Source of the DNA: Thalassotalea ponticola
GTDB taxonomy: Bacteria > Pseudomonadota > Gammaproteobacteria > Enterobacterales > Alteromonadaceae
DNA length: 64,000 bases
Assembly: GCF_041379045.1 (NCBI RefSeq)
Contig: NZ_CP166871.1
Location: 1,798,001-1,862,000, forward strand
Direction of reading: 5' to 3'
A program made the translations under genes and the position numbers. Below the pieces are notes generated by a model, which did not search any database, was not told where the DNA came from, and saw only the letters and a program-made list of their open reading frames with translations. Positions within the stretch are counted from its first letter, which is position 1. Each line of letters starts with the position of its first letter. Shown one piece after another: positions 7,510-21,463 of the stretch.

Positions 7510-7965
7510 TTAAAACTTAGCGATTAGGTTCGCTCTTTCGATATTGCCAATTGGCAATTCATAATCTTGACCATCAACGATAACGATTAAGCTATCGCCT
7601 TCAACCGCATCTAGCTCACCTTTGAACTTGCGACGGCCATTAATCGGCATCGAAAGTTTCACATCTACGGTTTCACCAATGACTTTTTCGAAGTGAGGTT
7701 TCTCAAACAGAGGTCTATCTACCCCAGGCGAAGACACTTCCAAGTTGTATTCCGTCGAAATTGGGTCTTCGACATCCAATACCGCACTAACTAATCTTGA
7801 CACTTCTGCACAATCGTCAACATTGATGCCATTCTCATGGTCGATAAACAAGCGTAAAACAGAGTGTTTGCCGGCGCTGACATACTCAACCCCTAGCAAT
7901 TCCTTGCCGGTCATCTCCACCGACGGACGCAGCATCTCAGTTAATTTTTGTTCAAATTTACTCAA
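7510..7965 (-). CDS. rimP: Ribosome maturation factor RimP
   Basis: RimP is needed for late 30S subunit maturation. The family core LRLFIDHENGINVDDCAEVSRLVSAVLDVEDPI and the motif EVSSPGVDRPLF are intact over 151 residues. The start chosen is TTG (7965-7963), because a clear GGAG ribosome site lies 7 nt upstream and no better ATG is near. It is the first gene of the nusA-infB operon. A GC hairpin with a U-rich run ends directly at its ribosome site, so transcription or translation of the operon may be attenuated there. Confidence 0.96.
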   Translation of the reverse strand: MSKFEQKLTEMLRPSVEMTGKELLGVEYVSAGKHSVLRLFIDHENGINVDDCAEVSRLVSAVLDVEDPISTEYNLEVSSPGVDRPLFEKPHFEKVIGETVDVKLSMPINGRRKFKGELDAVEGDSLIVIVDGQDYELPIGNIERANLIAKF

Positions 7966-7976
7966 GAATATTCTCC

Positions 7977-8001
7977 AAAAAAGAAAAGGGCCATTAGGCC
8001 C
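7977..8001 (-). terminator. Attenuator-like hairpin before rimP
   Basis: On the minus strand GGGCC-TAAT-GGCCC is followed by TTTTCTTTTTT, and the U-run abuts the rimP ribosome site. The stem has only 5 bp but is all G/C. In E. coli the leader of this operon also carries terminators, with read-through into rimP. Confidence 0.6.
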
Positions 8002-8111
8002 AATAATGTAAGCTACCTGGCAATGTCATCTACACCGAGGGGCTTGGACAACAATCAGTAGTATTGGTGTCGACTGGGTATCGTTAAGCGATTTAACGAG
8101 TACCAAATACG

Positions 8112-8137
8112 AAAAAGCCCCTATTCACACGGGGCCT
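8112..8137 (-). terminator. Intrinsic terminator in the rimP leader
   Basis: GCCCC (8117-8121) pairs with GGGGC (8131-8135) around a 9-nt loop, followed by five U on the minus strand. No gene is seen just upstream on that strand. It may therefore be a leader terminator of the rimP operon, or a leftover from a gene lost when the neighbouring block arrived. Confidence 0.6.
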
Positions 8138-8371
8138 ATATAACAACCCTTTGTGAACAGTAAAAGATCATGCCATTACAGTGCCATAAATCTTCAACAG
8201 GCCGTGAAACTTAGCTAATTTTCTACCCTAGAGTTGTAAGTAAAAAATCATTTCACGTCAAAGCTGGTGCAAGTATATCCTTGTCAGAGCAAAAGAGCAA
8301 TACCAAGCTCGGCTAACTTAGGCACACAACAACAATATTTGCCTCACCTCATCGCACAGATCTATACATGG
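8138..8371. other. Spacer between rimP leader and 3-hydroxybutyrate locus
   Basis: No coding frame is visible. No tRNA signature is found, although many relatives carry a tRNA-Met gene beside rimP. The rimP operon promoter (minus strand) and the promoter of the dehydrogenase gene (plus strand) should both lie in or near this stretch. Confidence 0.4.
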
Positions 8372-8384
8372 TACTAAGGTGGTA
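8372..8384. promoter_or_regulatory. Candidate operator 1 (TACTA-N3-TAGTA-like)
   Basis: The site TACTAAGGTGGTA lies 76 bp upstream of the dehydrogenase start. It differs by one base from the inverted repeat TACTA-N3-TAGTA, which also occurs before the TonB receptor and between the kinase and MFS genes. Binding by the local LuxR-type regulator is inferred. Confidence 0.4.
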
Positions 8385-8460
8385 AAGGCAAGCTTGATGG
8401 TTTTCTCTACAATGGTGTTATTACAATCTACGAAGATGATTATATTAGGGAACATCGTTT

Positions 8461-9243
8461 ATGTTAAAAGGTAAAACAGCATTAATTAGTGGGTCTACCA
8501 GCGGTATTGGCTTGGCTACTGCACATGTACTAGCCAAGCAAGGCATTAACATCGTCCTTCACGGCTTGATGTCGCCAGCTGATGGCGATAAGTTAGCGAC
8601 AGAGATGGCCGAGCAATACGATATAAGCACACTGTTTGACAATACCGATTTAAGAGACCCCACCGCTATTGGTGCACTAATTGATAGAGCGACAGCACAA
8701 TTTGGCAGCATCGACATTCTAGTCAATAATGCCGGTATTCAGCACACCGAAGCGGTTGACACCTTTCCCACGCAAAAATGGGATGACATCATCGCCATCA
8801 ATCTGAGCTCAGCGTTTCACCTGACTCAACAGTGCTTACCATCGATGCAGGCGAAAAAATGGGGACGTATCATCAATATCGCTTCAGTTCATGGTTTGGT
8901 CGCCTCAGTCCATAAAGCAGCCTACTGCGCGGCCAAGCACGGTCTTATTGGCTTTACTAAGGTAGTGGCTCTGGAAAACGCCGAATGTGGCATTACTGCG
9001 AACGCTATTTGCCCTGGTTGGGTTGACACGCCGTTGATCAACCAGCAAATCGAAAATGTGGCAAGCGAAAAAAACCTGCCAATTGAGCAAGCACGTTACC
9101 AATTAATCACCGCCAAGCAACCACTACCACACATGTTAGAAGCCGAACAAATTGGTGAGTTTATCTTATTTTTATGCAGTGACGCTGCGCGCTCTATTAC
9201 TGGCGCTTCGCTACCAATCGATGGCGCGTGGACCGCGCAATAA
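8461..9243 (+). CDS. bdhA: D-3-hydroxybutyrate dehydrogenase (SDR family)
   Basis: It oxidises D-3-hydroxybutyrate to acetoacetate with NAD+, feeding acetyl-CoA metabolism. The 260-residue short-chain dehydrogenase has the cofactor motif SGSTSGIG (10-17), NNAG (89-92) and the catalytic Ser142, Tyr155 and Lys159. The residues that bind the substrate carboxylate in characterised enzymes (Gln94, His144, Lys152, Trp187, Gln196) are all present at matching positions. This makes the substrate call firm. An AGGGAA ribosome site precedes the ATG. The next gene, a secreted PHB esterase, starts 71 bp later on the same strand, so 3-hydroxybutyrate released outside the cell is the likely substrate. Confidence 0.93.
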   Translation: MLKGKTALISGSTSGIGLATAHVLAKQGINIVLHGLMSPADGDKLATEMAEQYDISTLFDNTDLRDPTAIGALIDRATAQFGSIDILVNNAGIQHTEAVDTFPTQKWDDIIAINLSSAFHLTQQCLPSMQAKKWGRIINIASVHGLVASVHKAAYCAAKHGLIGFTKVVALENAECGITANAICPGWVDTPLINQQIENVASEKNLPIEQARYQLITAKQPLPHMLEAEQIGEFILFLCSDAARSITGASLPIDGAWTAQ

Positions 9244-9314
9244 AGCAATTTAACTCGCGAATCACAAACGCAGACAACAGATCAATATACAACGCAACAG
9301 CAACGGAGAACTCA

Positions 9315-10262
9315 ATGTTAACTTGGAATAAAAGCCTGTTATGGGCATCCCTATTTGTCGCCAGTAGCTGTCATGCCCAGTTTAGCCAACTGACTGACTT
9401 TGGCGACAATCCCGGTGAGTTAACGGCAAACGTACTGACCATCAACAAAGGCGCAACCGCAAACCTGGTGTTATTGCACGGATGTACACAACAGGGAACT
9501 GACCTTGCAACAGACAGTGGCTTTGTCGCCCTCGCCCAACGTTACAACTTTAATTTACTTCTCCCCCAACAGTCGACAAGCAATAATGTGCAAGGCTGCT
9601 TTAACTGGTTTTCGCCCGCCGATACCAGCAAAGATCAAGGCGAGTTGTTGTCATTGAAAAATATGATCAACGCCTACCAGCAACAGACTCAGGCTGAGCA
9701 AACGTATTTGGTTGGTTTGTCTGCCGGTGGTGCTATGGCCAATGTGCTAATGCACACTTACCCTGACATGTTTGATGGCGTCGGTGTCATTGCCGGTATC
9801 CCGTTTAACTGTGCTCACTCGCTTACCGAAGCCATTTCATGCATGAGAAATGGGCCAACGAGTGTCTCGAAAAAGGCAAAAAGCACAGCACAGACTAATA
9901 CAACCAATGGCACACATCTACCCAAGTTAACCGTTTGGACTGGTACCGACGATCAAGTGGTCAATCGCAAAAATGCCAGCTTCACTGTCGAACAATGGCT
10001 GACGAATAATGGGCTTAGCTTAGAGAAAATCCTAAACCAAAAAAGTGGTATCACTCGTAGCCGTTGGCAAACGAATGAGGCCGATGTTGTGTTGGAGCTA
10101 GTAGAAATTGACGATCTTGGTCACGGTATGATGGTGAAACCCGACAGTGAGTTTAGCCAAACAACGGGAAGCTATTTACTCAACGCGCCGATTAGCGCAG
10201 CCGTTGCAATCAGTGAGTTTTTTCAGCTAGACGCTAAGGAAATCTCTAATGAAAAACAATAA
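9315..10262 (+). CDS. Secreted PHB-depolymerase-family esterase
   Basis: Predicted extracellular or periplasmic alpha/beta-hydrolase that cleaves polyhydroxybutyrate or its short oligomers to 3-hydroxybutyrate. The ATG at 9315 was chosen because GGAGAA lies 4 nt upstream; the resulting 315-residue protein opens with a signal peptide ending near SSCHA (residue 21). LHGCTQ (54-59, oxyanion region), CFNWF (95-99) and the lipase box GLSAG with Ser136 match the PHB depolymerase/LpqC group. A late DDQ and a GHGM motif supply candidate Asp and His. I see no separate substrate-binding domain, which favours oligomers or amorphous polymer over crystalline PHB. The role fits the dehydrogenase directly upstream. 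Confidence 0.85.
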   Translation: MLTWNKSLLWASLFVASSCHAQFSQLTDFGDNPGELTANVLTINKGATANLVLLHGCTQQGTDLATDSGFVALAQRYNFNLLLPQQSTSNNVQGCFNWFSPADTSKDQGELLSLKNMINAYQQQTQAEQTYLVGLSAGGAMANVLMHTYPDMFDGVGVIAGIPFNCAHSLTEAISCMRNGPTSVSKKAKSTAQTNTTNGTHLPKLTVWTGTDDQVVNRKNASFTVEQWLTNNGLSLEKILNQKSGITRSRWQTNEADVVLELVEIDDLGHGMMVKPDSEFSQTTGSYLLNAPISAAVAISEFFQLDAKEISNEKQ

Positions 10263-10300
10263 AGCATTATTTAACAACAACTTAAAGAACAAAAATCGCA

Positions 10301-10313
10301 TACTACTATAGTA
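10301..10313. promoter_or_regulatory. Candidate operator 2 (perfect TACTA-N3-TAGTA)
   Basis: TACTACTATAGTA is a perfect inverted repeat 117 bp upstream of the TonB-receptor start and 38 bp after the esterase stop. It is the best of the three copies in this locus. Confidence 0.4.
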
Positions 10314-10430
10314 CACATTATTTATGTTCAAAAATCGTTTAAAGTGATTAACAAGCTACCATACAGCTCCTTTTGTTTGGTGCAAACTCATACAACAAGA
10401 AAGTATTAATAATAATTATTGGGGAATAAA

Positions 10431-12704
10431 ATGAGACAAAGCGTAAAATCTCTCAGTTATCTGTCGCTTGCCATAGCCAGTGCACTTAGTACACAAGCGC
10501 TGGCTGAAGAACAAGCGTTAGACAGCAGCGATCCAAGTCTTGAGCGCATTGAAGTTACCGCGCGTAAAACCGTAGAAAACCTACAAGAGGTACCGGTTGC
10601 GGTGACTTCAATAGGTGCTGATGATCTGGCGCAAAACGGCATTGAAGTACTTACCGAAGTACAGCAGTTTTCACCTAACACGACACTACAACGCAGCCGC
10701 GGTACCAACTCAACAATAACCGCATTTATTCGCGGTGTGGGTCAGCAAGATCCATTATGGGGCTATGAGCCAGGTGTTGGTATTTACGTCGATGACGTAT
10801 ACATGGCTCGTCCACAAGGCGCCGTGTTAGATCTACTTGATGTTGAACGCATCGAAGTTCTGCGCGGACCGCAAGGCACGCTATACGGCAAAAACACCAT
10901 TGGCGGTGCGATCAAATACGTCACCAAAGAAATGTCTGGCGATACCGAGTTAAAAGTGCAAGGTACTGTGGGTAGTTACAACCAAACAGACTTTAAATTG
11001 ACCGGTCAAATTCCACTTATTGACGACAGCTTATACATTGGTTTTGGCGTAGCAAGCTTGCAACGCGATGGCTTTGGCGAATACTTGCAGTCAGCACTGG
11101 AAGGCCAAGACAAAGAAAACTACAACAAAGACGTCACCGCAGCGCGAGTAACATTGGAATTCCATCCGTCTGACGATTTGTTCTTCCGTTTAAACTACGA
11201 TAAAACCAAAGATGAATCGAACGCAAAAGGCGGTTATCGCTTGTTGCCAAGTATCCTAACCGATGCGCCTGTACCTGACAGCGTATACGATTCATACACC
11301 AGTTTACCAACCTGGAACGAAGTCGAGCTTGAAGGCATCAGCTTTACCGCAAGATGGGACGTTTCAGATAATACCCAACTCAAATACATTGCCTCAAGCC
11401 GCGAAAGTTACTCGCCGACCAACATTGACTTTGACAACACCGCACTGCCAATTTTTGACGTGCCGGCGATCTATGACGATGAGCAAATGACCCATGAGTT
11501 ACAGCTCAATAATGTGGGCGATAATTATAAGTTCGTATCGGGTATTTACTATTACGACGGTGAATCATGTGGTCAATTCGAAGCCATTTTGGAAGTCCTT
11601 GGTAATGCATTGGGTGCGCCAGGCCTCACTCGTGAAGTGACCGGTTGCAATAACTCAACAAGCCAAGCGGTTTACGCACAAGTCAGTTATGACTTAACTG
11701 ATCAATGGTCAGTAACCGCCGGTGGACGTTATACCAAAGATGAAAAAGAAGCCTATGTAAACAATGGTTTGATCTTTGCGACCGTATATCCTGAGTCAGG
11801 CTGGGTGCCTGGTTATGTGCGCCCTGAAGGCGAGCTTGTACCTGAAGTGTTAAACGACAAGCAAGACTGGTCTAAATTTACCCCGCGCATTGGTGTTGAA
11901 TATCAAGCACACGATGATTTAATGTTATTTGCCAGCTACGCAAAAGGTTTCAAATCAGGTACCTTTAATCCTCGGGCATCAACCGCCGAGCCAGCGGCAA
12001 ACCCAGAAGATGTCGATTCATTTGAACTTGGTATGAAGAGCGAATGGTTTAACAATCGCTTGCGCGCTAATGTCACCTTTTTTGCTCTAGATCACCAAGA
12101 CCGTCAATACATTTCGGTACTACCTGGTGAGACAGCGGCCGATTTAAATCAACGCTTAGCCAATGTGGGTGAATCAGAATCGACCGGTATTGAAGCAGAA
12201 CTGGCGTTTAGAGCAACTGATAACCTTGAGCTAACCGCTAGCTTGGGTACGATAGATGCTGACTTTACTGAAGTACTTGATACCAACCCAGAAACTGGTG
12301 AGCAGTTTGACAAGTCGGATCGCTTCACTATTTCAAACACGCCGGATTACACCTTTAATTTAGGTGCTAATTATACCCTTGAGTCAAATATTGGTGACTT
12401 TGTATTTAATGCCAATTACTACTACCGTGACGACTATGTGTTATTTGAAGAAGACAGCTTGTTAACACAAGACGGTTACGGGTTGTTAAACGTCGGTATT
12501 AACTGGTTTAGCAATGACGGTCATTGGACCGCGGGCTTACACGCGAAAAACTTAACCGACGAAGAATACATGATCGGCGGTTATCAGTTTGTCGCGCCGC
12601 TAGAAGACGGCAGCTACGCACCAGGCTTAGGTGGTGACAATACGCTAATTGGCTATTACGGCGATCCAAGAACGGTCAGCTTAACGGTCAGTTACCAATT
12701 TTAA
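10431..12704 (+). CDS. TonB-dependent outer-membrane receptor
   Basis: A 22-stranded barrel with a plug domain, driven by TonB/ExbBD, that imports specific ligands across the outer membrane. ATG 10431 follows GGGGA by 5 nt, and a signal peptide ends near TQALA (about residue 25). The plug (EVPVAVTSIGADDL; RGVGQQDP; VLRGPQGTLYGKNTIGGAIKY) spans roughly residues 45-165. The barrel ends in an aromatic residue (VSYQF). Its 757 residues are ordinary for the family. No siderophore or vitamin B12 genes are nearby. Flanked by the PHB esterase and the regulator pair, it probably takes up 3-hydroxybutyrate oligomers or a related compound. The ligand is inferred from context only. Confidence 0.9.
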   Translation: MRQSVKSLSYLSLAIASALSTQALAEEQALDSSDPSLERIEVTARKTVENLQEVPVAVTSIGADDLAQNGIEVLTEVQQFSPNTTLQRSRGTNSTITAFIRGVGQQDPLWGYEPGVGIYVDDVYMARPQGAVLDLLDVERIEVLRGPQGTLYGKNTIGGAIKYVTKEMSGDTELKVQGTVGSYNQTDFKLTGQIPLIDDSLYIGFGVASLQRDGFGEYLQSALEGQDKENYNKDVTAARVTLEFHPSDDLFFRLNYDKTKDESNAKGGYRLLPSILTDAPVPDSVYDSYTSLPTWNEVELEGISFTARWDVSDNTQLKYIASSRESYSPTNIDFDNTALPIFDVPAIYDDEQMTHELQLNNVGDNYKFVSGIYYYDGESCGQFEAILEVLGNALGAPGLTREVTGCNNSTSQAVYAQVSYDLTDQWSVTAGGRYTKDEKEAYVNNGLIFATVYPESGWVPGYVRPEGELVPEVLNDKQDWSKFTPRIGVEYQAHDDLMLFASYAKGFKSGTFNPRASTAEPAANPEDVDSFELGMKSEWFNNRLRANVTFFALDHQDRQYISVLPGETAADLNQRLANVGESESTGIEAELAFRATDNLELTASLGTIDADFTEVLDTNPETGEQFDKSDRFTISNTPDYTFNLGANYTLESNIGDFVFNANYYYRDDYVLFEEDSLLTQDGYGLLNVGINWFSNDGHWTAGLHAKNLTDEEYMIGGYQFVAPLEDGSYAPGLGGDNTLIGYYGDPRTVSLTVSYQF

Positions 12705-12731
12705 TCCCGCCTCCCTCGGTGATTAATGAAC

Positions 12732-12763
12732 AAAAAGAGCTGGTATTTATCAGCTCTTTTTTT
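12732..12763 (+). terminator. Intrinsic terminator after the TonB receptor
   Basis: An 11-bp stem (12732-12742 with 12751-12761) with an AGCTG/CAGCT core and an 8-nt loop is followed by a run of seven T. It isolates the receptor transcript from the response-regulator gene. Confidence 0.88.
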
Positions 12764-12821
12764 CATAATCAACAGTAAATAATCCGGACAATAACGCACA
12801 ATAATAACCCAAGGATTTGCC

Positions 12822-13487
12822 ATGACAGACGCGAAAATTGCGATCGCTGACGACCATCCGCTATTTCGAGCAGCGCTAAAACAAGCCATAGCAGAGTGCT
12901 TTGTCGATGAGGTCAGTCTCGAAGTAGATAACTTTCAGGATTTGTTGGCTTTGATAGACGCTCAGCCAAGTATTGAATTAGTGTTTCTTGATTTGCACAT
13001 GCCCGGTAACGATGGTTTTAGTGGTTTGTCGATGTTGCAAAATCACCACCCCGATCTCGTGGTCATTATGGTGTCCTCGCAAGACGACCAACACGTAATG
13101 CAAAAAGCCATACACCTTGGCGCTGCCGCCTTTATTCCTAAGTCCGCCGATTTAACGGTGATAAATCAGGCCATCAATACGGTGCTCGATGGCGAAGTCT
13201 GGTTGCCTGATAACATGGTTATTGACACCGACGAAAAAACCAAGGCAGAGCAACAAACACTAGCCAAACAGTTGGCGCAACTTACCCCACAACAATTTGT
13301 GGTACTCAAGTTAATAGCCGATGGTCAATTAAACAAACAAATCGCCTACGATCTGGATATTAAAGAGACCACGGTGAAGAAACACGTATCGGCTATTCTA
13401 ACCAAGTTAGCCGTTAACAATCGCACTTTAGCTGGCTTAAAATATCAACAACTGATGCAAGCCACCGAGCCACATTTAGCCAGTTAA
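12822..13487 (+). CDS. LuxR/NarL-type response regulator (CrbR-like)
   Basis: A two-component transcription regulator of 221 residues. The receiver domain has Asp10-Asp11, phospho-acceptor Asp57 in VFLDLHMPG, and the Lys of FIPKSAD. It is joined to a LuxR-type helix-turn-helix (LTPQQFVVLKLIADGQLNKQIAYDL ... TTVKKHVSAIL). The partner is almost certainly the hybrid kinase encoded convergently next to it; the stop codons of the two genes share one TTAA. CrbS/CrbR (MxtR/ErdR in Pseudomonas) pairs control acetyl-CoA synthetase and acetate use, so an input from short acids such as 3-hydroxybutyrate is plausible. AAGG precedes the ATG. Confidence 0.88.
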   Translation: MTDAKIAIADDHPLFRAALKQAIAECFVDEVSLEVDNFQDLLALIDAQPSIELVFLDLHMPGNDGFSGLSMLQNHHPDLVVIMVSSQDDQHVMQKAIHLGAAAFIPKSADLTVINQAINTVLDGEVWLPDNMVIDTDEKTKAEQQTLAKQLAQLTPQQFVVLKLIADGQLNKQIAYDLDIKETTVKKHVSAILTKLAVNNRTLAGLKYQQLMQATEPHLAS

Positions 13488-16400
13488 ACCGCCACTTGCT
13501 TTAACACCCGTTTTAACGCTAAGGCTTTAACGGGTTTTGGTAAAAATTGGTAATTGGCATTACTGGTGTGTTGTCGCACCTGCTCCGACGGATCAGCTGA
13601 GACAATAATACACGGTGTTTGCCAATCCTGAGCACTAACCAACTCGCTTATTACATCAACGCCGTTGGTGTTGCCTCCTAAGTGATAGTCGGCAATGATC
13701 AGATCGGGTTGACCATCACACTGCAACGCACATTGATTTAAGCTAGCTTGGTCATCGGCTGCAACAACACGACACCCCCACTCGCGTAACTGGCTAGACA
13801 ACGCTGTTAACATTAATGGGTCATTATCTAATAACAGTATTTGCACGGCGTTACTTGGCTCATGCGATACCAACTCAGCTGTTGGCGCAACAGTCATAGC
13901 TCGGTTCGATTCTCCTTGAACGCTATTAACCGGTACTTCGACGCGTTTGACATCGAGCATAAAACCACTGCCTTTATTGAGTGTCGATTGCACGCTAATG
14001 GTCAAACCCAACAAGGTGGCAATGCGCTCACATATCGCCAAACCCAATCCTAAGCCGGGGATTTCACGACGTTGCTCTAATCGTTCAAACTCTTTAAAGA
14101 TTTGCGCTTGTTTGTCGCTCGCAATGCCAGGTCCATTATCCCAAACTTGGATGCGAATGGCGCCGTTTGTGCGACGAACGCCCAAAACGATTTTCGGCCG
14201 ACTGTGTGTAGCGTCGTGCCCTTCACTACCGTAGTGCAGCGCATTGGATAAAAAGTTTTGGATAATGCGGCGCAATAAACGCTTATCTGTTTGTACCCAA
14301 ACGTCGCTATCAATACAATGAAATTGCACGCCTCGTTGCTGCGCCAAAACAGTAAATTCATTGGCCAGTGGCGTCAACACATCGCTGAGACAAAATTTCG
14401 ACACCTCAACTTTATGCGAACCACCATCGAGTCGTGAGATTTCCACTAAGTCCGACAATAAGGCTTCAACTACGTTTAGCGAATCATCAATGTGATTGGC
14501 CAGCTGCTGTAACTCTTTATTGTCGGCCTTCTTTTTTAACATCGAAGTGAACAAACTCAATGCGTTAAACGGTTGCATTAAGTCATGACTGGCCGCCGCT
14601 AAAAATCGAGTTTTACTTTGATTGGCCGCTTCGGCTTGCGCTTTAGCGTGCTCTAACTCATAGGTGCGCTTAGCCACTTGTTGCTCGAGTACTTCATTGG
14701 CTTGTTGTAACAGTCGCTCGGCTTGAACGTGCACAGTGATATCACTAAAGGTACTGACAAACCCGCCTCCTGGCATTGCTTGACCGCGAATCTCCAGTAC
14801 TCTGCCATCGGGCATAATGCGTTGGTAATGATGATTGTGCCCATGGCGCATGTGCTCTATTCGCTTTTCAATTAACATCGACTCGTCGTCGCCTTCAATC
14901 ACACCGCGATCAATGTTGTAGCGCAGTAAGTCCGAGACGTGCATACCGGCGACGACAAAACCATCTGGGTAATCAAGCAATTCAACGTAGCGTTTATTCC
15001 ACGCAACTAAACGCATGTCGGAATCTATCACGCTGATCCCCTGCTCAATATTTTCTACCCCAGATTGCAATAATTCGCGATTAAATTGAAATACTTGCGT
15101 TGCTTCATCAACAATACTAACCACGTCTTCTAGCGGATAATGCTGCGCATTTGCTGCCGCTTTCATCACCATACGCGTCGATGCCGAGCCTAGTACGCCC
15201 GACAATTGTAAGCGCGTATATTCCATTAAACGGTTGCTTGGCTCTCGCGTGTTGATATTTTGCTGTTGGGCGAATTGTAATAACCTATCCGCGGCATCCT
15301 TGTCGATAAAGCGTTGTAACAAGCTATACAGATCTTTACTCGACAGTTTTCGCTCGCCTATTTTTTTCTGCTTATTAACATACAAATTGGCCTGTAACGT
15401 TTCTCCGACAGTTTGTTTACTGAACAAGGAAACTACGATAAAACACAAAGCGTTAGCCACCAAGCTAAATACCACGCCATGGGTTAAAGGATCGAGCGAG
15501 GAAAGATAAAACAACGCCGTCGGTTGCAGCCATGCAATTGACCAAGGGCCGTGAATAACCCAACCAGCTTGGGGCGCCAGCATTGGCAACAACAAGGTAT
15601 ACAACCAGACCAAGCTACCAACGCAAACACTGCTAAACGCAGCACGTGATGTTGCCCGTTGCCAATATAAAGCGCCAATAACCGCGGGGGCAAATTGCGA
15701 TAACAATACAAACGACAGCAAACCCACACTGGCTAAGTGACTGTGTTGAATAACCAAGCGCTCAAAGGCAAATGCCAGCGCCAAAATAACCACGATACTG
15801 GTTCGGCGCATGGTTAATAACACACCCGATATTTGCCCGCGGTTTTGCTCATTGAACAAACGCAACTTAAGCATGGTCGGAGTTAAAATGTCATTTGATA
15901 GCATGGTACTTAATACGATCGCCGCTACCACAACCATGCTGGTGGCCGCCGCCAAACCACCAATATAGGCGATGACACCAAGCCACGCTTGTTGATGAAA
16001 CAATGGCAAACTTAAAACAAAGGTATCTGGATTAACGCTGCCCCCAGGAAAACTGAGTAAGCCAGCAAGCGCGATTGGCAACACAAACAAATTGATGGCG
16101 ATCAAATACAGTGGAAACAACCAACGCGCGGTTTTTAACTCGCCCTCGTGATTGTTTTCAATCATGGTCATGTGAAACTGTTGCGGCAAAATAAAGATAG
16201 TGATCGCCCCCAACACCGTTTGCGCAATGATCGCATACCACGGGCTAGGCTCAGAGGGCAACGCAATTTGCGCTTGTTTGGCCAGTAAATCGCCGACACC
16301 ATCAAATAAATAAAAACAGGCAAATAAACCGACAAGGGTAAAAGCGAACAACTTAACCACTGAACTAAATGCAATCGCCAACACCAATCCGGGGTTTTGT

Positions 16401-16942
16401 TTACTGGCTGATACGTGTTGTGCGCCGAAGACAATACTAAACGCTATTAATACTAAGGTCACGATAAGCGCCGTGCTGGCCCCAACTTGCAAGGTACCAG
16501 TGAGCAAGTCAAAACTGGTACTTATCGCCCGTAGCTGAAGGGCAATATAGGGGACGAGGCCAATCAAGGTAACAATCGCTACCAGTGCGGCAATTTGTGG
16601 TGAGCGATCGTATCGACAAGAAATAAAGTCGGCAATTGAGGTGAGGTTTTGCTGTTTGATGATACGCAGTGTTTTTAGCAACATCGGCCAACCGAGCAGA
16701 AAACACGCTATGGTACCTATGTACAAGGGAGCCAACCAATCTCGGCTCAAAGCGGCTTGGCCAACGGTGCCGTAAAATGCCCAAGACGAACAGCACACCC
16801 CTAGCGACAAACTGTACACCCAAGTTTTCGGTCGGCTATTGCTGCGGTGTTGACCGAAAAAAGCGACGATAAATAACACCGCTAAATACGCTATAGAAAT
16901 TAAGGTAACGAACCAAATATCCAGTGATTGCCAAGCTAGCAC
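13484..16942 (-). CDS. SSS-transporter hybrid sensor histidine kinase (CrbS-like)
   Basis: An inner-membrane sensor of 1152 residues. The N-terminal half (about 1-490) has some 13 hydrophobic segments of a sodium:solute symporter. A PAS domain (about 615-745, GISVIDSDMRLVAWN) and a coiled linker follow. The dimerisation domain contains His in ASHDLMQPFNAL. The ATPase domain has NFLSNAL, DNGPGI and GLGLGLAI motifs. A C-terminal receiver has its Asp in IIADYHLGG. This is the CrbS/MxtR architecture. The GTG start is preceded by AAGGA. The transporter part may bind or carry the sensed substrate. The closeness to 3-hydroxybutyrate genes suggests a dedicated paralogue; whether it instead controls acs cannot be told here. 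Confidence 0.88.
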   Translation of the reverse strand: MLAWQSLDIWFVTLISIAYLAVLFIVAFFGQHRSNSRPKTWVYSLSLGVCCSSWAFYGTVGQAALSRDWLAPLYIGTIACFLLGWPMLLKTLRIIKQQNLTSIADFISCRYDRSPQIAALVAIVTLIGLVPYIALQLRAISTSFDLLTGTLQVGASTALIVTLVLIAFSIVFGAQHVSASKQNPGLVLAIAFSSVVKLFAFTLVGLFACFYLFDGVGDLLAKQAQIALPSEPSPWYAIIAQTVLGAITIFILPQQFHMTMIENNHEGELKTARWLFPLYLIAINLFVLPIALAGLLSFPGGSVNPDTFVLSLPLFHQQAWLGVIAYIGGLAAATSMVVVAAIVLSTMLSNDILTPTMLKLRLFNEQNRGQISGVLLTMRRTSIVVILALAFAFERLVIQHSHLASVGLLSFVLLSQFAPAVIGALYWQRATSRAAFSSVCVGSLVWLYTLLLPMLAPQAGWVIHGPWSIAWLQPTALFYLSSLDPLTHGVVFSLVANALCFIVVSLFSKQTVGETLQANLYVNKQKKIGERKLSSKDLYSLLQRFIDKDAADRLLQFAQQQNINTREPSNRLMEYTRLQLSGVLGSASTRMVMKAAANAQHYPLEDVVSIVDEATQVFQFNRELLQSGVENIEQGISVIDSDMRLVAWNKRYVELLDYPDGFVVAGMHVSDLLRYNIDRGVIEGDDESMLIEKRIEHMRHGHNHHYQRIMPDGRVLEIRGQAMPGGGFVSTFSDITVHVQAERLLQQANEVLEQQVAKRTYELEHAKAQAEAANQSKTRFLAAASHDLMQPFNALSLFTSMLKKKADNKELQQLANHIDDSLNVVEALLSDLVEISRLDGGSHKVEVSKFCLSDVLTPLANEFTVLAQQRGVQFHCIDSDVWVQTDKRLLRRIIQNFLSNALHYGSEGHDATHSRPKIVLGVRRTNGAIRIQVWDNGPGIASDKQAQIFKEFERLEQRREIPGLGLGLAICERIATLLGLTISVQSTLNKGSGFMLDVKRVEVPVNSVQGESNRAMTVAPTAELVSHEPSNAVQILLLDNDPLMLTALSSQLREWGCRVVAADDQASLNQCALQCDGQPDLIIADYHLGGNTNGVDVISELVSAQDWQTPCIIVSADPSEQVRQHTSNANYQFLPKPVKALALKRVLKQVAV

Positions 16943-17021
16943 ATCAAATCCTTATTGTTGTTTTTATCCGCCGATGGACATTGTGTTATCGCGCTGCTGT
17001 GCTGTTTTTCATTTAATAGTG

Positions 17022-17034
17022 AACTAAGGTAGTA
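17022..17034. promoter_or_regulatory. Candidate operator 3 (TACTA-N3-TAGTA-like)
   Basis: AACTAAGGTAGTA lies in the divergent 155-bp region, 79 bp before the kinase start and 63 bp before the MFS start. It shares 11 of 12 inner bases with the site before bdhA. It also sits in a wider palindrome (GAACTA at 17021-17026, TAGTTC at 17033-17038). Confidence 0.4.
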
Positions 17035-17097
17035 GTTCTTTTCGCTGCGCATTGCGATAACCTATCAAGCAGTGATTACCATCGTCAATTTTTATTT

Positions 17098-18264
17098 ATG
17101 AAGATAACCAACAAATACCTTATTGAAACTCTTGTTTTTTTCAGTTACGTGCTCTTTGCCATGGCCTGGGTTGGCGGCACCGCGAGCATGAGCCAAATTA
17201 TGGCTTCGTTAAACGTCGACAGTTTAGCATCGGCCAGTTTTATCAGTGGCGCGGTTACCCTAGCTAAAATCGTCGGCACCTTTATCGCAGCGTGGTTAGC
17301 GGTAAAATACGGCGTTAAAATGGCGTTTTTTATCTCCAGCTTATTAATCACCATCGGCATTTTTACCCCCTATTCACCTAATTATGAAGTTTTGTTACTC
17401 AGTCGCTTTTTAATGGGCTTGGGGGGCGCCTTTATGATCGTCTATTTTAATCCCATTGTATTGCAGTGCTTTAAACCGCATGAGCGTCCGGTCATAAACG
17501 GCTTAAATGCGGTAGCCTTTAATGTCGGTACTGGGGTCATATTATGGTTTATGGACGACATCAATGCCCTTACCGGTGGCTGGAAAATGAGTTTAACCAT
17601 ATTTTCGTTAGTCAGTTTAGTGTTAATGTTGGTTTGGTTGTTGGTGCGCTTACACGATGATCAAGCGCAAGTAGCCAATCAACAGGCACCTGCGACCTAC
17701 AGCTACACAGATGGCTTAAAAGACAAATTCAATTGGGCCTATGCTCTGACTTACTCTGGTTTATTGACCTTTTACATCTGTTTATTCACCTTTTACCCGA
17801 AAGCAGGGATCACCCAGAGCAAGTGGGTAATAAGCTTTGGAATTATCGGTACACTCGCCGGTATTGCATACAGTAAGAAAATACTACAGCGACTACCGGT
17901 TATTCGTTGGTCTGGCCTGATCATGACATTGAGCTTAGCCGGTTTATCGTTTAGCCCAACCCCGTGGTTACAAACGGCAAGTGCGATTGTGCTCGGTTTT
18001 TTCATCTTTTTCCCTATCACCGCATTAGTCTCTATTCCACATGAGCTAAAAAATATGACATCAGCGCGGGTCACCGTGATATTCAGTTTGTTTTATTCAA
18101 TTAGCTATTTGTTTGCAACTGTCGTGTTATGGGTGTTTGGCAAGCTAGTTGATATCAATCAAGGCGATTACAGCGCATCGTTAGCCATGGTTTGTGTGCT
18201 CAGTTTGACATTTTTCATCGGTAGCTTTTACCTACCTGAAACGCAGCCTAAAACGGAGAAGTAA
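17098..18264 (+). CDS. MFS transporter, probable organic-acid/3-hydroxybutyrate carrier
   Basis: An inner-membrane major facilitator of 388 residues with about 12 hydrophobic segments and a central hydrophilic loop around residue 190-210. The loop after helix 2 (AVKYGVK) and RFLMGLGGAF in helix 4 are MFS features. I cannot assign a substrate from sequence. The following hydrolase gene starts 2 bp after its stop, with its ribosome site inside this gene, so the two form an operon. Import of hydroxyacid or oligoester for the hydrolase is inferred. The ATG lacks a clear ribosome site, so the exact start is less certain. Confidence 0.82.
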   Translation: MKITNKYLIETLVFFSYVLFAMAWVGGTASMSQIMASLNVDSLASASFISGAVTLAKIVGTFIAAWLAVKYGVKMAFFISSLLITIGIFTPYSPNYEVLLLSRFLMGLGGAFMIVYFNPIVLQCFKPHERPVINGLNAVAFNVGTGVILWFMDDINALTGGWKMSLTIFSLVSLVLMLVWLLVRLHDDQAQVANQQAPATYSYTDGLKDKFNWAYALTYSGLLTFYICLFTFYPKAGITQSKWVISFGIIGTLAGIAYSKKILQRLPVIRWSGLIMTLSLAGLSFSPTPWLQTASAIVLGFFIFFPITALVSIPHELKNMTSARVTVIFSLFYSISYLFATVVLWVFGKLVDINQGDYSASLAMVCVLSLTFFIGSFYLPETQPKTEK

Positions 18265-18266
18265 CA

Positions 18267-19205
18267 ATGAGAGGTATTGTATCATCCAAACTCGCCCCCT
18301 TATTAGCCGATGTGAATAAGGCGCTTGAGGAGATAAAGGCCAACAATATTCCATTCGAGGTAGATATTACGCGGCAAAACCTCAACAACTTATCAGCGCT
18401 AATGGGCACAGGACCGGATATTGCATCGATTCAAGACAAGTCATTAGCACACGACAACGGGGTGATTAACACCCGAATTTATCATCCAGCACCCGAACAG
18501 GCACTACCGGTAGCGTTGCACTTTCACGGCGGTGGGCACATGTGTGGCAGTGTCGAATTATACGACCCAATCAGTCGACGTATTGCCGACACCTGTCGGG
18601 TCGTGGTGATTGCTGTAGATTACCGCCTTGCCCCTGAGCATCCTTATCCAGCCGGAATCGACGACTGTACCTTGGCACTGCGTCACATAGACCAATTACG
18701 CAGTGACATTAAGCACAACGGCCAAGTGTTTATCATCGGCGATAGCGCTGGTGGCGCGATTTGTACGACGTTAGCGTTGAAAAGTTTGACTGACTCAAGT
18801 TTAACCATCGATAAACAACTGTTGATATACCCAAGTGTCGACTACACCATGAGTAGCCCATCAATAGACGAAAACGGACAGGGTTTTTTACTAGAGAAAG
18901 GCAAAATACAATGGTACTTCGAGCAATATTTTCAATCACGAGACAGCCAGCAAACCCGCTTTGATGCCTCACCGCTATTAAATACCATTAACAAGGCATT
19001 ACCTCCGACGTTAGTGATCACCGCCGGTTGCGATCCGCTGCGAGATGAGGGCGTACAGTACGCCAAAGCACTGGCTGGGGCCGGGGTTGAAGTAACCCAT
19101 CACTCGTTTGACGATATGATCCACGCGTATATGTTACTGCACGACTTAGTTGAACACGAATGTCAACAAACATATCAAGCAATGAGCGATTTTATCTCGC
19201 GCTAA
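18267..19205 (+). CDS. Alpha/beta hydrolase, hormone-sensitive-lipase family
   Basis: A cytoplasmic serine esterase of 312 residues with no signal peptide. HGGG (87-90) forms the oxyanion hole, GDSAG carries nucleophile Ser160, and the YRLAPEHPYPAG segment is diagnostic of the HSL (family IV) group. A late DPLRDEG supplies the likely Asp, and HAY near the end the His. Substrates in this family are short acyl esters. In this locus an oligomer of 3-hydroxybutyrate brought in by the neighbouring transporter is the best guess, giving a cytoplasmic step that complements the secreted esterase. Confidence 0.85.
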   Translation: MRGIVSSKLAPLLADVNKALEEIKANNIPFEVDITRQNLNNLSALMGTGPDIASIQDKSLAHDNGVINTRIYHPAPEQALPVALHFHGGGHMCGSVELYDPISRRIADTCRVVVIAVDYRLAPEHPYPAGIDDCTLALRHIDQLRSDIKHNGQVFIIGDSAGGAICTTLALKSLTDSSLTIDKQLLIYPSVDYTMSSPSIDENGQGFLLEKGKIQWYFEQYFQSRDSQQTRFDASPLLNTINKALPPTLVITAGCDPLRDEGVQYAKALAGAGVEVTHHSFDDMIHAYMLLHDLVEHECQQTYQAMSDFISR

Positions 19206-19258
19206 ATTTAAACTGGTATCGCCCACAACTATACAGTACACAGCGGTTAACCTCCCTT

Positions 19259-19301
19259 GGCCACCACAACAAAATAGTGCATGTTGTGGTGGCCTTTTTA
19301 T
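19259..19301 (+). terminator. Intrinsic terminator after the MFS-hydrolase operon
   Basis: A perfect 12-bp stem (19259-19270 with 19283-19294), rich in GGCCACCAC, closes a 12-nt loop and is followed by TTTTTATT. It starts 53 bp past the hydrolase stop. Confidence 0.9.
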
Positions 19302-19554
19302 TGGCGCCGTTTTGCCTTTAAGTCCCCAGTCGCGTCCGCTGATAATATGGCGTTGAATATCATTCCTGCCAGCGCAATTGGTATCTGACAGGTTAAATAG
19401 AACCGCGCATGATGCTTATGTTAGCTAGTGTCTCAAACTGGCCTTTAACTTAGAGTCGGTCAATCGCTTGTTCTTCTAGTTTCGATGTAGACGGATTACC
19501 AGCTAACAGACTAAAAATAATGAGTTTCCACTTGTAGAATTTGCGACTTGAAAC
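19302..19554. other. Spacer, probably insertion-sequence debris
   Basis: No gene is seen. It leads into an IS3 transposase relic and then a full IS256-type insertion, so it is probably decayed mobile DNA. No recognisable terminal repeats remain. Confidence 0.3.
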
Positions 19555-19677
19555 AGAGCACAAGAAGGTATTCTCGATTACATCGAAATGCTTTATAACC
19601 GTGGACTGGAGCATGAGTATTTGCACAATCCGTTACCAATTGACTATGCCAGCTGTTTCATGCCAGCTATTTCATGA
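19555..19677 (+). pseudogene. Relic of an IS3-family transposase C-terminus
   Basis: Forty codons read RAQEGILDYIEMLYNR followed by a segment ending in PIDYAS. They resemble the last part of IS3-family OrfB (…IFDYIE-FYN-…-P-DY). A stop codon precedes it in frame and nothing of the DDE core is left, so this is a remnant only. It shows that the region was a target for insertion before the IS256-type element arrived. Confidence 0.6.
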
Positions 19678-19763
19678 ACCAATAACATGTTTAGGTTAAT
19701 CACTTCATTACCTCTTGGTCATGATGGAGTACATCAACTGGTGAGCTAACATCCGCACCACAT

Positions 19764-19771
19764 AAAGTACG
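19764..19771. repeat. Left target-site duplication (AAAGTACG)
   Basis: An 8-bp direct repeat identical to 20886-20893. It flanks the IS256-type element exactly, with the length normal for that family. Confidence 0.85.
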
Positions 19772-20885
19772 GGTACCGTCCCAAAAAGTGTGTCTCTCTT
19801 ATTTCAATTTCAGTTTCAAACTTTCTAGTTAAATAAGTTACTTTTCTCAAAACGACTTATTGGGTATTGGTAAGTCGTTTGATTCATATCCAATGCAACC
19901 TTACTCAGAATGGTTAACACTGAGTCAACGCTTGGCATAGAGTTTCGTATTTTGAGCGTACGTTTGAATGATTTATTTAATCGTTCGATCCAGTTGGTAG
20001 TATAAATCATATTTCGGATCATCGGCTCAAAGTCTAAATAGGTCGCGTAATAGTACATGTATACTTCATCTATAAACACTTTGAAGCTAGGATATCGTTT
20101 ACCCCATTTATCAGACAACCACCTCGCTCGGAGCAGAAACTCCTCTCGATCATCCGATTGATCTTCTAAGTTGAATACAAACCTTAAATCCTCAGCAACA
20201 TCATTACGATGAGATTTTTTCACTTTCTTTAAGATGTTGCGTTTCATATGCAACACGCATTTTTGAATTCGGCATTGATAATGGCGCTCAATGGCTGAAT
20301 CTAAACCGGCTAAGTTATCTATCACAGCGAGGTCGATTTGTGCGAGCCCTCGAGCTTTTAAGTCTAATAAGATGTCATCCCAATTTGACGCCGATTCCGT
20401 TGGCGCATTGTAGATACCGATAACCTCGCGAGTCATATCATGCTTAACGGCCAGCACAATGTAATAAGCTTCACTGGAAACTGTTTCACGCTTTGTCTTG
20501 ATGAATGTCGCGTCGAGATAAATGATGGGATAGTACTCGCACAGCTTCTGCTTTCTGAAGTCCTCCATTTCTTTATAAAGACTTTTGGTGATGCGTGATA
20601 CCGCGCTACGCGTCAGTTTCTGACCGTAAATCGATTCGGTTACAGATTCGATATCTCGGGTTGTCAAACCTTTAGCATAAAGTTCGAAGCAAAGCTCATT
20701 TAATGTATCACTTTGCTCCTTCATTACATTGAGGATCCAAGGCTTGAATTTGTTTACTATTCAGCGTTAAATTAGTCATGGTCTCTCTCCGTTTGTTGTT
20801 GATTGTTTTTTGGTCGAAACTTTCAACTAAACTAAGAGAGACTTTTTTATTTGTCTAGTGGGACACACTTCTGTGGGACGGTATG
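19772..20885. mobile_element. IS256-family insertion sequence, internally deleted
   Basis: The ends are imperfect inverted repeats: 19774-19794 begins TACCGTCCCAAAAAGTGTG, and the complement of 20862-20883 begins TACCGTCCCACAGAAGTGTG. Both are bounded by 8-bp duplications. At 1114 bp it is shorter than typical members (about 1.3-1.5 kb), because the 5' part of the transposase gene is missing. The intact duplications show that this copy moved as a unit, so the deletion either happened after insertion or the short form was mobilised in trans. Confidence 0.88.
19825..20779 (-). pseudogene. IS256-family (mutator-type) transposase, N-terminal deletion and frameshift
   Basis: Translation begins at ATG 20779 after GGAGAGAG with MTNLTLNSKQIQAL, a normal IS256 N-terminus, but this frame stops after 23 codons. 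The rest, readable from 20724 as 299 residues, is in another frame. It starts around the conserved FxP ... LYAKGLTTRDI region and keeps the catalytic acids (Asp in YLDATFIK, Asp in VIDNLAGLD, Glu in TTNWIERLNK). Relative to about 400-residue relatives, roughly 85-90 codons of the DNA-binding part are lost. It is probably inactive unless a frameshift and reduced N-terminus suffice. Confidence 0.8.
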
Positions 20886-20893
20886 AAAGTACG
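20886..20893. repeat. Right target-site duplication (AAAGTACG)
   Basis: The second copy of the 8-bp duplication that bounds the IS256-type element. Confidence 0.85.
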
Positions 20894-20940
20894 ACTAAAA
20901 GTCTTGGCTTGAAAGGACCTTATCGGGCGTTAGCAGGCAT

Positions 20941-20976
20941 AAAAAAAGCCCAGAGCGTTGATTACTCTGGGCTTTT
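20941..20976 (-). terminator. Terminator of the secG-tRNA-Leu transcript
   Basis: AGCCCAGAG pairs with CTCTGGGCT around a 9-nt loop, followed on the minus strand by a run of seven U. It lies 33 bp past the tRNA 3' end. Confidence 0.9.
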
Positions 20977-21008
20977 CTAACTTTATCGGTTCTTATTGAA
21001 CCTTGAAT

Positions 21009-21095
21009 TGGTGCGGATGGGGGGACTTGAACCCCCACGAGCGTAAGCTCACCACCCCCTCAAGATGGCGTGTCTACCAATTCCACCACATCCGC
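21009..21095 (-). tRNA. leuU: tRNA-Leu (anticodon GAG)
   Basis: The 87-nt gene includes an encoded CCA (complement of 21009-21011). The acceptor arms GCGGATG and CATCCGC pair fully. The anticodon loop TTGAGGG lies between CCATC and GGTGG and gives GAG. A class II long variable arm (GTGAGCTTACGCTC) and the T-arm GGTTCAAGT are present. Its place downstream of secG matches E. coli leuU. Synteny with rimP is broken by the accessory block. Confidence 0.97.
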
Positions 21096-21112
21096 GAAAC
21101 TTTTAGTAGCGA

Positions 21113-21463
21113 TTAGTTAGGAACGTCGTTCTCTTTTTTGTCATCGCTTACTGGAACATCTGAAGCTGGGGTTGCGCTTTCAACTTGCTCTGCGCCACCT
21201 AGGTTATTCCATTCATCTGTTGCTTTTGTGCGTTGGGCTGTTAAGTTACCTAACACTAAGCTGATCAAGAAGAAACAGGTTGCTAAAATCGTTGTTGTTT
21301 TGGTCATAAAGTTACCAGAACCCGATGAACCAAAAATGGTTGCTGATGAACCTGCACCAAAGGAAGCACCCATATCTGCACCCTTGCCTTGTTGTAACAA
21401 GATAAAACCAACAAGCACTAAGGCTATGATCAGATAAATTACTAAGAATATTTGATAATACAT
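21113..21463 (-). CDS. secG: Preprotein translocase subunit SecG
   Basis: SecG is the small inner-membrane subunit of the SecYEG protein-export channel. Two transmembrane helices (about residues 3-23 and 53-73) flank a Gly/Ser-rich cytoplasmic loop (GKGADMGASFGAGSSATIFGS), as in the family. The 116 residues end in an acidic tail. It follows tpiA by 12 bp on the same strand and precedes tRNA-Leu, an ordinary gammaproteobacterial arrangement. Confidence 0.96.
   Translation of the reverse strand: MYYQIFLVIYLIIALVLVGFILLQQGKGADMGASFGAGSSATIFGSSGSGNFMTKTTTILATCFFLISLVLGNLTAQRTKATDEWNNLGGAEQVESATPASDVPVSDDKKENDVPN

Follow-up and report, generated by a model that had tools for sequence, protein, structure and literature searches.

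A 64,000-nucleotide stretch of Thalassotalea ponticola DNA (positions 1,798,001 to 1,862,000 of contig NZ_CP166871.1, hereafter the window) contains seven genes that probably form a system for the utilisation of polyhydroxybutyrate (PHB) and 3-hydroxybutyrate oligomers, built like a polysaccharide utilisation locus. Its TonB-dependent receptor has relatives beside two different PHB-type gene sets, which suggests that the receptor imports PHB fragments. Direct observation covers the gene content, the conserved linkage, the exclusive enzyme sets, the re-pairing of the receptor with them, the promoter motif and the fold of the sensor kinase. A broader reading is somewhat favoured: that a single receptor family serves as the entry point for polyester fragments in marine Gammaproteobacteria and, as one module, was joined repeatedly to two unrelated sets of enzymes and transporters, where each set has its own SLC5-kinase/CrbR-type pair and these pairs recognise a common palindrome. 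The receptor would then set the substrate while the enzymes are replaceable, defining a class of “polyester utilisation locus”.

Gene content and proposed pathway

All seven genes listed in the initial annotation of the window are found at the stated positions within 8461..19205, and the family models bear out the families assigned to them. The order is dehydrogenase-esterase (+), receptor-regulator (+), kinase (-) and MFS-hydrolase (+), where the kinase gene is convergent with the regulator gene and overlaps its 3' end by 4 bases. The features are as follows:

8369..8384, + strand: ACTU/CrbR-like palindrome TGGTACTAAGGTGGTA, 5' of the dehydrogenase-esterase unit
8461..9243, + strand: (R)-3-hydroxybutyrate dehydrogenase (above the TIGR01963 cut-off; aligned to 1wmb)
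9315..10262, + strand: predicted exported type-1 short-chain polyhydroxyalkanoate (PHA) depolymerase/esterase (above the NF050058 cut-off; signal peptide judged by eye)
10301..10316, strand not assigned: ACTU/CrbR-like palindrome TACTACTATAGTACAC, 5' of the receptor
10431..12704, + strand: TonB-dependent receptor, 757 aa (Pfam Plug and beta-barrel)
12822..13487, + strand: CrbR/ErdR-like LuxR-family response regulator (best NCBIfam model NF041830; regulator tree)
13484..16942, - strand: CrbS-like hybrid histidine kinase with SLC5-transporter fold, PAS, HisKA, HATPase and receiver domains
17019..17034, + strand: ACTU/CrbR-like palindrome GTGAACTAAGGTAGTA, in the common kinase/MFS promoter region
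17098..18264, + strand: MFS carrier (PF07690), proposed inner-membrane importer of 3-hydroxybutyrate or short oligomers
18267..19205, + strand: HSL-family hydrolase (PF07859; HGGG, GDSAG), proposed cytosolic oligomer hydrolase

The dehydrogenase scores 320.6 bits against TIGR01963 (cut-off 307.05) and aligns nearly end to end with the solved D-3-hydroxybutyrate dehydrogenase 1wmb. The residues pointed out earlier (Q94, S142, H144, K152, Y155, W187 and Q196), which we take to be the substrate-binding residues of this enzyme, are all in place, inside a stretch aligned to 1wmb without gaps. The esterase scores 228.6 bits against NF050058, the type-1 short-chain PHA depolymerase domain (cut-off 150), and most likely starts at ATG 9315, where a signal peptide is seen by eye, rather than at GTG 9228. 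Its residues S136, D213 and H270 are invariant in 19 of 19 aligned sequences and, judging from this conservation, probably form the catalytic triad. The closest PDB structures to its model (predicted local distance difference test score, pLDDT, 87.3) are 8daj/9byu, a PHB-hydrolysing esterase classed as a PHB depolymerase. The second hydrolase reaches 273.7 bits against NF058653 LipP1, under the cut-off of 350, and its HGGG and GDSAG motifs are visible. A PHA depolymerase linked to a 3-hydroxybutyrate dehydrogenase, the working definition of a PHB utilisation locus used here, is thus present in the window, as it is in relatives. However, the original description of a self-contained locus holding every step was too strong: the seven genes include no acetoacetate CoA-transferase or thiolase, and the acetoacetate CoA-transferase of the window's genome (G000) lies elsewhere, at G000:C1:2337977, so that not all catabolic steps fall within the locus.

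The receptor likely starts at ATG 10431 and not at the alternative TTG 10419; the database copy is 757 aa long. It scores 183.9 bits against the siderophore receptor model TIGR01783, below the cut-off of 223.5, and by PDB sequence comparison solved TonB receptors are only distant matches (best 4epa, 68.9 bits). Reading the ligand from these matches was given up, as all of them are distant (receptors for siderophores, colicins, heme and B12) and do not reveal it.

From the locus and its relatives we infer the ligand of the receptor, the direction of transport, the substrate of each enzyme and the signal of the kinase. The exported esterase would cleave PHB or its soluble oligomers, either extracellularly or within the periplasm, and the TonB receptor would draw oligomers across the outer membrane. 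The MFS protein may then move monomers or short oligomers inward, where the HSL hydrolase would complete ester cleavage and the dehydrogenase would convert (R)-3-hydroxybutyrate to acetoacetate, to be activated by the CoA-transferase encoded elsewhere. The CrbS/CrbR-type sensor, a transporter-fold kinase with a LuxR-type regulator, would switch the units on via their common palindrome.

The receptor and its two gene sets in related genomes

A scan of named genomes with peptide patterns of the window's own receptor gave 61 loci, a set that favours close relatives because of the origin of the patterns. Gene families in these loci were defined by clustering of open reading frames (ORFs), with one representative per family annotated. 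All but two (59/61) carry either the type-1 esterase (18 loci, type I) or a GntP-like permease (41 loci, type II). The window-like type I loci contain the regulator in 18/18 cases, the kinase, MFS carrier and HSL hydrolase in 14, and the dehydrogenase family in 9. In type II, a MetX-like hydrolase is present in 40 loci, the dehydrogenase family in 35 and a type-2 PHB depolymerase, with a 2.9e-52 match to 2d80/2d81, a solved PHB depolymerase, in 23. Nine of the 61 loci, with both types represented, carry the two CoA-transferase subunit families close to the receptor. In five Alkalimonas loci (L049-L052 and L055), a gene of the isocitrate lyase family (530-560 aa; that of L052 was annotated) lies 3' of the receptor and regulator. 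Isocitrate lyase belongs to the glyoxylate cycle and would be expected in cells that grow on substrates yielding acetyl-CoA. The two untyped loci are L075, a 9.7 kb contig with the receptor at its edge, and L088. The window's genome also encodes a GntP-like permease away from the locus (L105, G000:C1:463557-464858), 56% identical to the type-II permease.

The linkage extends to whole genomes. Among 97 related genomes, 42 are receptor-positive and 55 receptor-negative; either depolymerase occurs in 35/42 of the former and 0/55 of the latter, the dehydrogenase in 39/42 against 3/55, and the MFS carrier (E ≤ 1e-60) in 16/42 against 1/55. These genomes and loci are related, so the counts are not independent and Fisher values of co-occurrence overstate independence. 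Sixteen genomes gave the type-1 esterase and 19 the type-2 depolymerase, never both in one genome; more distant type-1 enzymes could be missed because the query was the window's protein at E ≤ 1e-20. Within the window's genus, receptor and depolymerase are both present in the identical 7 of 15 genomes. Regarding distance, the type-1 esterase lies within 6 kb of the receptor in 16/16 genomes and the type-2 depolymerase in 15/19, while a regulator match does so in 38/42 (37 by best-scoring match; for G020 and G070 the match nearer the receptor was used). Therefore, the genes do co-occur elsewhere, in related loci and genomes, and a joint function in the use of PHB and its oligomers, as first proposed for the seven genes, finds support in this conserved linkage and in the PHB-type neighbourhoods of the receptor, oligomer uptake being the inferred part.

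Do receptor and enzyme set share one history? Trees were quick LG+G4 reconstructions with SH-aLRT support only, omitting the two untyped loci and using clustered ORFs only (60 receptors, 58 regulators, 49 kinases and 45 dehydrogenases); several rows of the receptor tree are long-branched. In the regulator and kinase trees the two architectures part with a single change, and in the dehydrogenase tree with two. The receptor tree requires at least four changes of type, forced by well supported branches, and a single clade of type-I receptors is rejected (p-AU 2.65e-07). Therefore, receptor and enzyme set were re-paired several times. The simplest reading of this re-pairing, which took place despite different depolymerase and permease families, is a common ligand of the receptor.

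It is possible that the PHB names mislead and that the locus in fact acts on a different short-chain hydroxyacid ester or polyester, such as another PHA, a 3-hydroxyacyl-decorated compound or an acylated glycan. Several observations bear on this point or weigh more generally against a PHB system. Next after 8daj/9byu, the type-1 esterase is similar to feruloyl and to acetylxylan esterases, and the protein (315 aa) is without a separate substrate-binding domain, the matched domain taking up almost everything beyond the signal peptide; such a domain, which lies outside the NCBIfam model, is common in enzymes acting on solid PHB. Furthermore, L083 (Pseudidiomarina), L090 and L092 combine the MetX-like hydrolase, permease, receptor and sensor with an acyl-CoA ligase-like gene (that of L092 was annotated), and no dehydrogenase was found in these sets. 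Neither depolymerase was found in 7 of the 42 receptor-positive genomes, three of which (G024, G040 and G042) are also without a dehydrogenase or CoA-transferase match; two of these three correspond to L090 and L092. In 4 of 19 genomes a long distance separates the type-2 depolymerase from the receptor, and L088 (Pseudoalteromonas denitrificans) is without the PHB set. A different substrate is nonetheless improbable, given the 3-hydroxybutyrate site residues of the dehydrogenase, the presence of its family in 35/41 type-II loci (one annotated member exceeds the TIGR01963 cut-off), the kinship of the type-2 depolymerase with a solved PHB depolymerase, and the CoA-transferase subunit and isocitrate lyase families in 9 and 5 loci, respectively. 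In L088, a hydrolase (L088:12214-13446) lies beside the receptor relative and is weakly PhaZ7-like (30 bits against a cut-off of 450).

Alternatively, the locus may serve 3-hydroxybutyrate or PHB catabolism while the receptor takes a different ligand, for example iron or a vitamin, with monomers entering via porins, through which the 3-hydroxybutyrate monomer fits. The best NCBIfam and PDB matches of the receptor are indeed of siderophore or colicin type, though below cut-off or distant, and more remote receptors point the same way. Of 369 genomes drawn from the class, with two candidates scored per genome, seven gave the receptor at E ≤ 1e-120. G000 and G038 among them had been part of the previous set, and the other five contributed six receptors that were read in context. 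Two of them, L111 and L112 (48-49% identity), stand outside PHB gene sets, the neighbours of L112 being, by reading, dehydrogenase-like, symporter-like, ligase-like and hydrolase-like genes, and a second receptor copy, L098 (53% identity), is without any of the set. A tie to PHB is thus not universal across the wider receptor family, and the linkage of receptor and PHB genes weakens with receptor distance. However, L113-L116 (about 40% identity, from three genomes of one other family) retain relatives of the kinase and regulator; a permease relative accompanies L113, L114 and L115, the dehydrogenase accompanies L113 and L115, and L114 and L116 show a weak esterase match. A search of plasmids with an Alteromonas receptor gave no match. 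The persistence of kinase, regulator and dehydrogenase in L113 and L115, and a receptor that stays constant while depolymerase and permease families vary, argue against another ligand. So does the Alteromonas macleodii receptor beside a PHB depolymerase, which is up under carbon and not iron limitation (log2 1.59; PMC7190382), provided that it is orthologous to the window receptor. Overall, this alternative is unlikely. As for grouping with receptors of unrelated ligands, raised at the outset as a possible objection, the close relatives adjoin PHB-type gene sets and the solved receptors are distant.

Another explanation considered is mobilisation of PHB that the cell itself has stored. The window's genome does encode one PHB synthase (PhaC, G000:C1:215631-216146), a further point against a system for external PHB, and may therefore also store the polymer. 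However, PhaC does not track the receptor: it occurs in 21 of the 97 genomes, 11/42 receptor-positive and 10/55 receptor-negative (Fisher p 0.46), and the search found none in 31 of the 42 receptor-positive genomes. In addition, the esterase has the appearance of an exported protein, and an outer-membrane receptor would be needless for the use of a store. This explanation was rejected on the PhaC distribution and is highly improbable.

The sensor pair and the upstream palindrome

About 500 N-terminal residues of the kinase adopt an SLC5 transporter fold, according to comparison of its model (pLDDT 77.8) with known folds. The fold comparison was decisive here, since none of the Pfam SLC5 models matched the kinase even at E 10. 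An SLC5-type N-terminal fold has been described for CrbS and RpuS (PMC9100948), and the fusion of this domain to a histidine kinase is a feature that the protein shares with the SLC5/STAC (CrbS) family. No STAC domain is among the Pfam matches of the kinase at E ≤ 10, the STAC model not having been sought by name. For the regulator, the best NCBIfam model is NF041830 ErdR (211.8 bits, under its cut-off of 390).

Is the pair simply the acetate (CrbS/CrbR) system of the genome, located here by chance? The locus regulator is the sole regulator match at E ≤ 1e-30 in the window's genome, where the next match of the ErdR model reaches 77.5 bits, and the palindromes resemble the ACTU motif of CrbR (PMC5715377). 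On the other hand, by match counts 38 of the 42 receptor-positive genomes hold a further CrbR-like regulator match, which the window's genome does not, and the locus regulators form two groups that follow the enzyme set. An acetate system merely located here is therefore doubtful, somewhat less so than the alternatives for substrate and ligand. Of the dedicated sensor pair proposed in the initial annotation, what stands is that the pair follows the locus in relatives; its exclusive dedication is weakened, in that this kind of pair is known for acetate and the regulator is the only one of its kind found in the genome.

In the proposed scheme the pair would act through a palindrome shared among promoter regions, an ACTU-like site of this kind being located ahead of most transcription units. 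Published CrbR ACTU sites include TACGACTAAAGTCTAAA and TAATACTAAGGTCGTCT, and also TACTACCATCGTCGAAT, the acs site of Pseudomonas fluorescens (PMC5715377), which is without the core ACTAWRGT used here. This core was picked after inspecting matches of an ACTU-like pattern. It is present within 300 bp 5' of the receptor in 43 of 61 upstream sequences (the window and 60 loci, as upstream DNA is absent for L075), compared with 35 of 577 for the remaining genes of these loci, and when sequences are grouped at 80% receptor identity it is found in the majority of members for 14 of 23 groups. Within 250 bp upstream, type-I loci carry the core at the dehydrogenase (9/10), MFS (12/15), kinase (11/15) and esterase (10/19) genes, and type-II loci at the permease (29/41). 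At genes expected to be internal to operons the counts are 4/58 (regulator), 3/15 (HSL hydrolase), 0/40 (MetX-like hydrolase) and 0/23 (type-2 depolymerase). Less in keeping with common control, the core is rare 5' of the type-II dehydrogenase (4/35) and the type-II kinase (8/32).

In the window, the three promoter regions of the locus each hold the core, at 8373, 10305 and 17023. The core alone is not rare, since the 64 kb contain 11 where about 6 are expected. The site at 8369..8384 is the sole zero-mismatch match of TRSTACTAWRGTRSWA in the 3.35 Mb genome, a pattern drawn in part from such sites. With up to one mismatch there are six genome sites, two of them in the locus, and the site at 17019 has three mismatches. 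Around three of the four off-locus sites (L106, L107 and L108), nothing PHB-specific was recognised among the ORFs; near the L106 site, an alpha/beta hydrolase is read from the ORFs. A genome-wide regulon based on the motif was abandoned: the relaxed pattern is uninformative, because a reversed control gave more sites (217) than the pattern itself (98) at up to two mismatches.

Known systems and genomic surroundings

TonB-linked polysaccharide utilisation loci bring together an outer-membrane receptor, an exported depolymerase, an inner-membrane importer, enzymes that complete the breakdown in the cytosol, and a local sensor. The same component set stands in one locus here. Differently from those loci, the proposed substrate is a polyester and not a glycan, there is no SusD-type gene among the seven, and the sensor is of the CrbS/CrbR type.

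The SLC5-fold hybrid kinase, LuxR-type regulator and ACTU-like palindrome are shared with CrbS/CrbR and RpuS/RpuR (PMC5715377; PMC9100948), which are linked to acetate or pyruvate; the window pair, in contrast, stands among PHB-type genes that include a TonB receptor. The convergent kinase and regulator genes recall a chromosomal Sinorhizobium pair, taken to be its CrbS/R. A TonB receptor whose substrate derives from a polymer and is not iron, a vitamin or a sugar has a precedent in DdvT of Sphingobium SYK-6 (PMC6874591), whose import of a lignin-derived biphenyl was demonstrated experimentally, unlike the proposed import by the window receptor.

The closest precedent is Alteromonas macleodii MASE_06600, for which a 2020 transcriptome study lists PHB as predicted receptor substrate from the gene neighbourhood (PMC7190382). 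Both cases present a TonB receptor with an adjoining PHB depolymerase, and MASE_06600 is carbon-responsive. That prediction concerned one receptor and its neighbourhood, whereas the present loci add a second architecture, the sensor pair, the motif and the re-pairing. The literature search, which covered few subscription papers and no preprints, returned no TonB uptake of hydroxybutyrate oligomers among the matches listed, PMC7190382 being the nearest; the available portions of PMC7029141, PMC10882806 and PMC12912811 contain nothing on the subject. The initial view that such uptake is not an established system thus holds as regards demonstration, but PHB had already been predicted for MASE_06600. 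As far as the literature was searched, the two exclusive architectures, the re-pairing of the receptor, the association of both architectures with an SLC5-type sensor, and the common palindrome are new.

If the proposal is correct, it provides named marine-bacterial genes and a sequence marker by which marine PHB consumers could be recognised, together with a candidate family of 3-hydroxybutyrate-responsive sensors. Because the receptor was re-paired with two enzyme sets, its ligand can be tested directly.

On its left, the locus is bordered by rimP, following infB-nusA (7510-8461), and a related locus in another genome (L058) likewise adjoins rimP-nusA-infB. The right neighbours (19205-21463) are tRNA-Leu, secG and tpiA, and an IS256-family transposase ORF without its N-terminal part lies near this edge (19825-20724). 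A ribosomal S15 leader is located at 1579-1703 on the minus strand.

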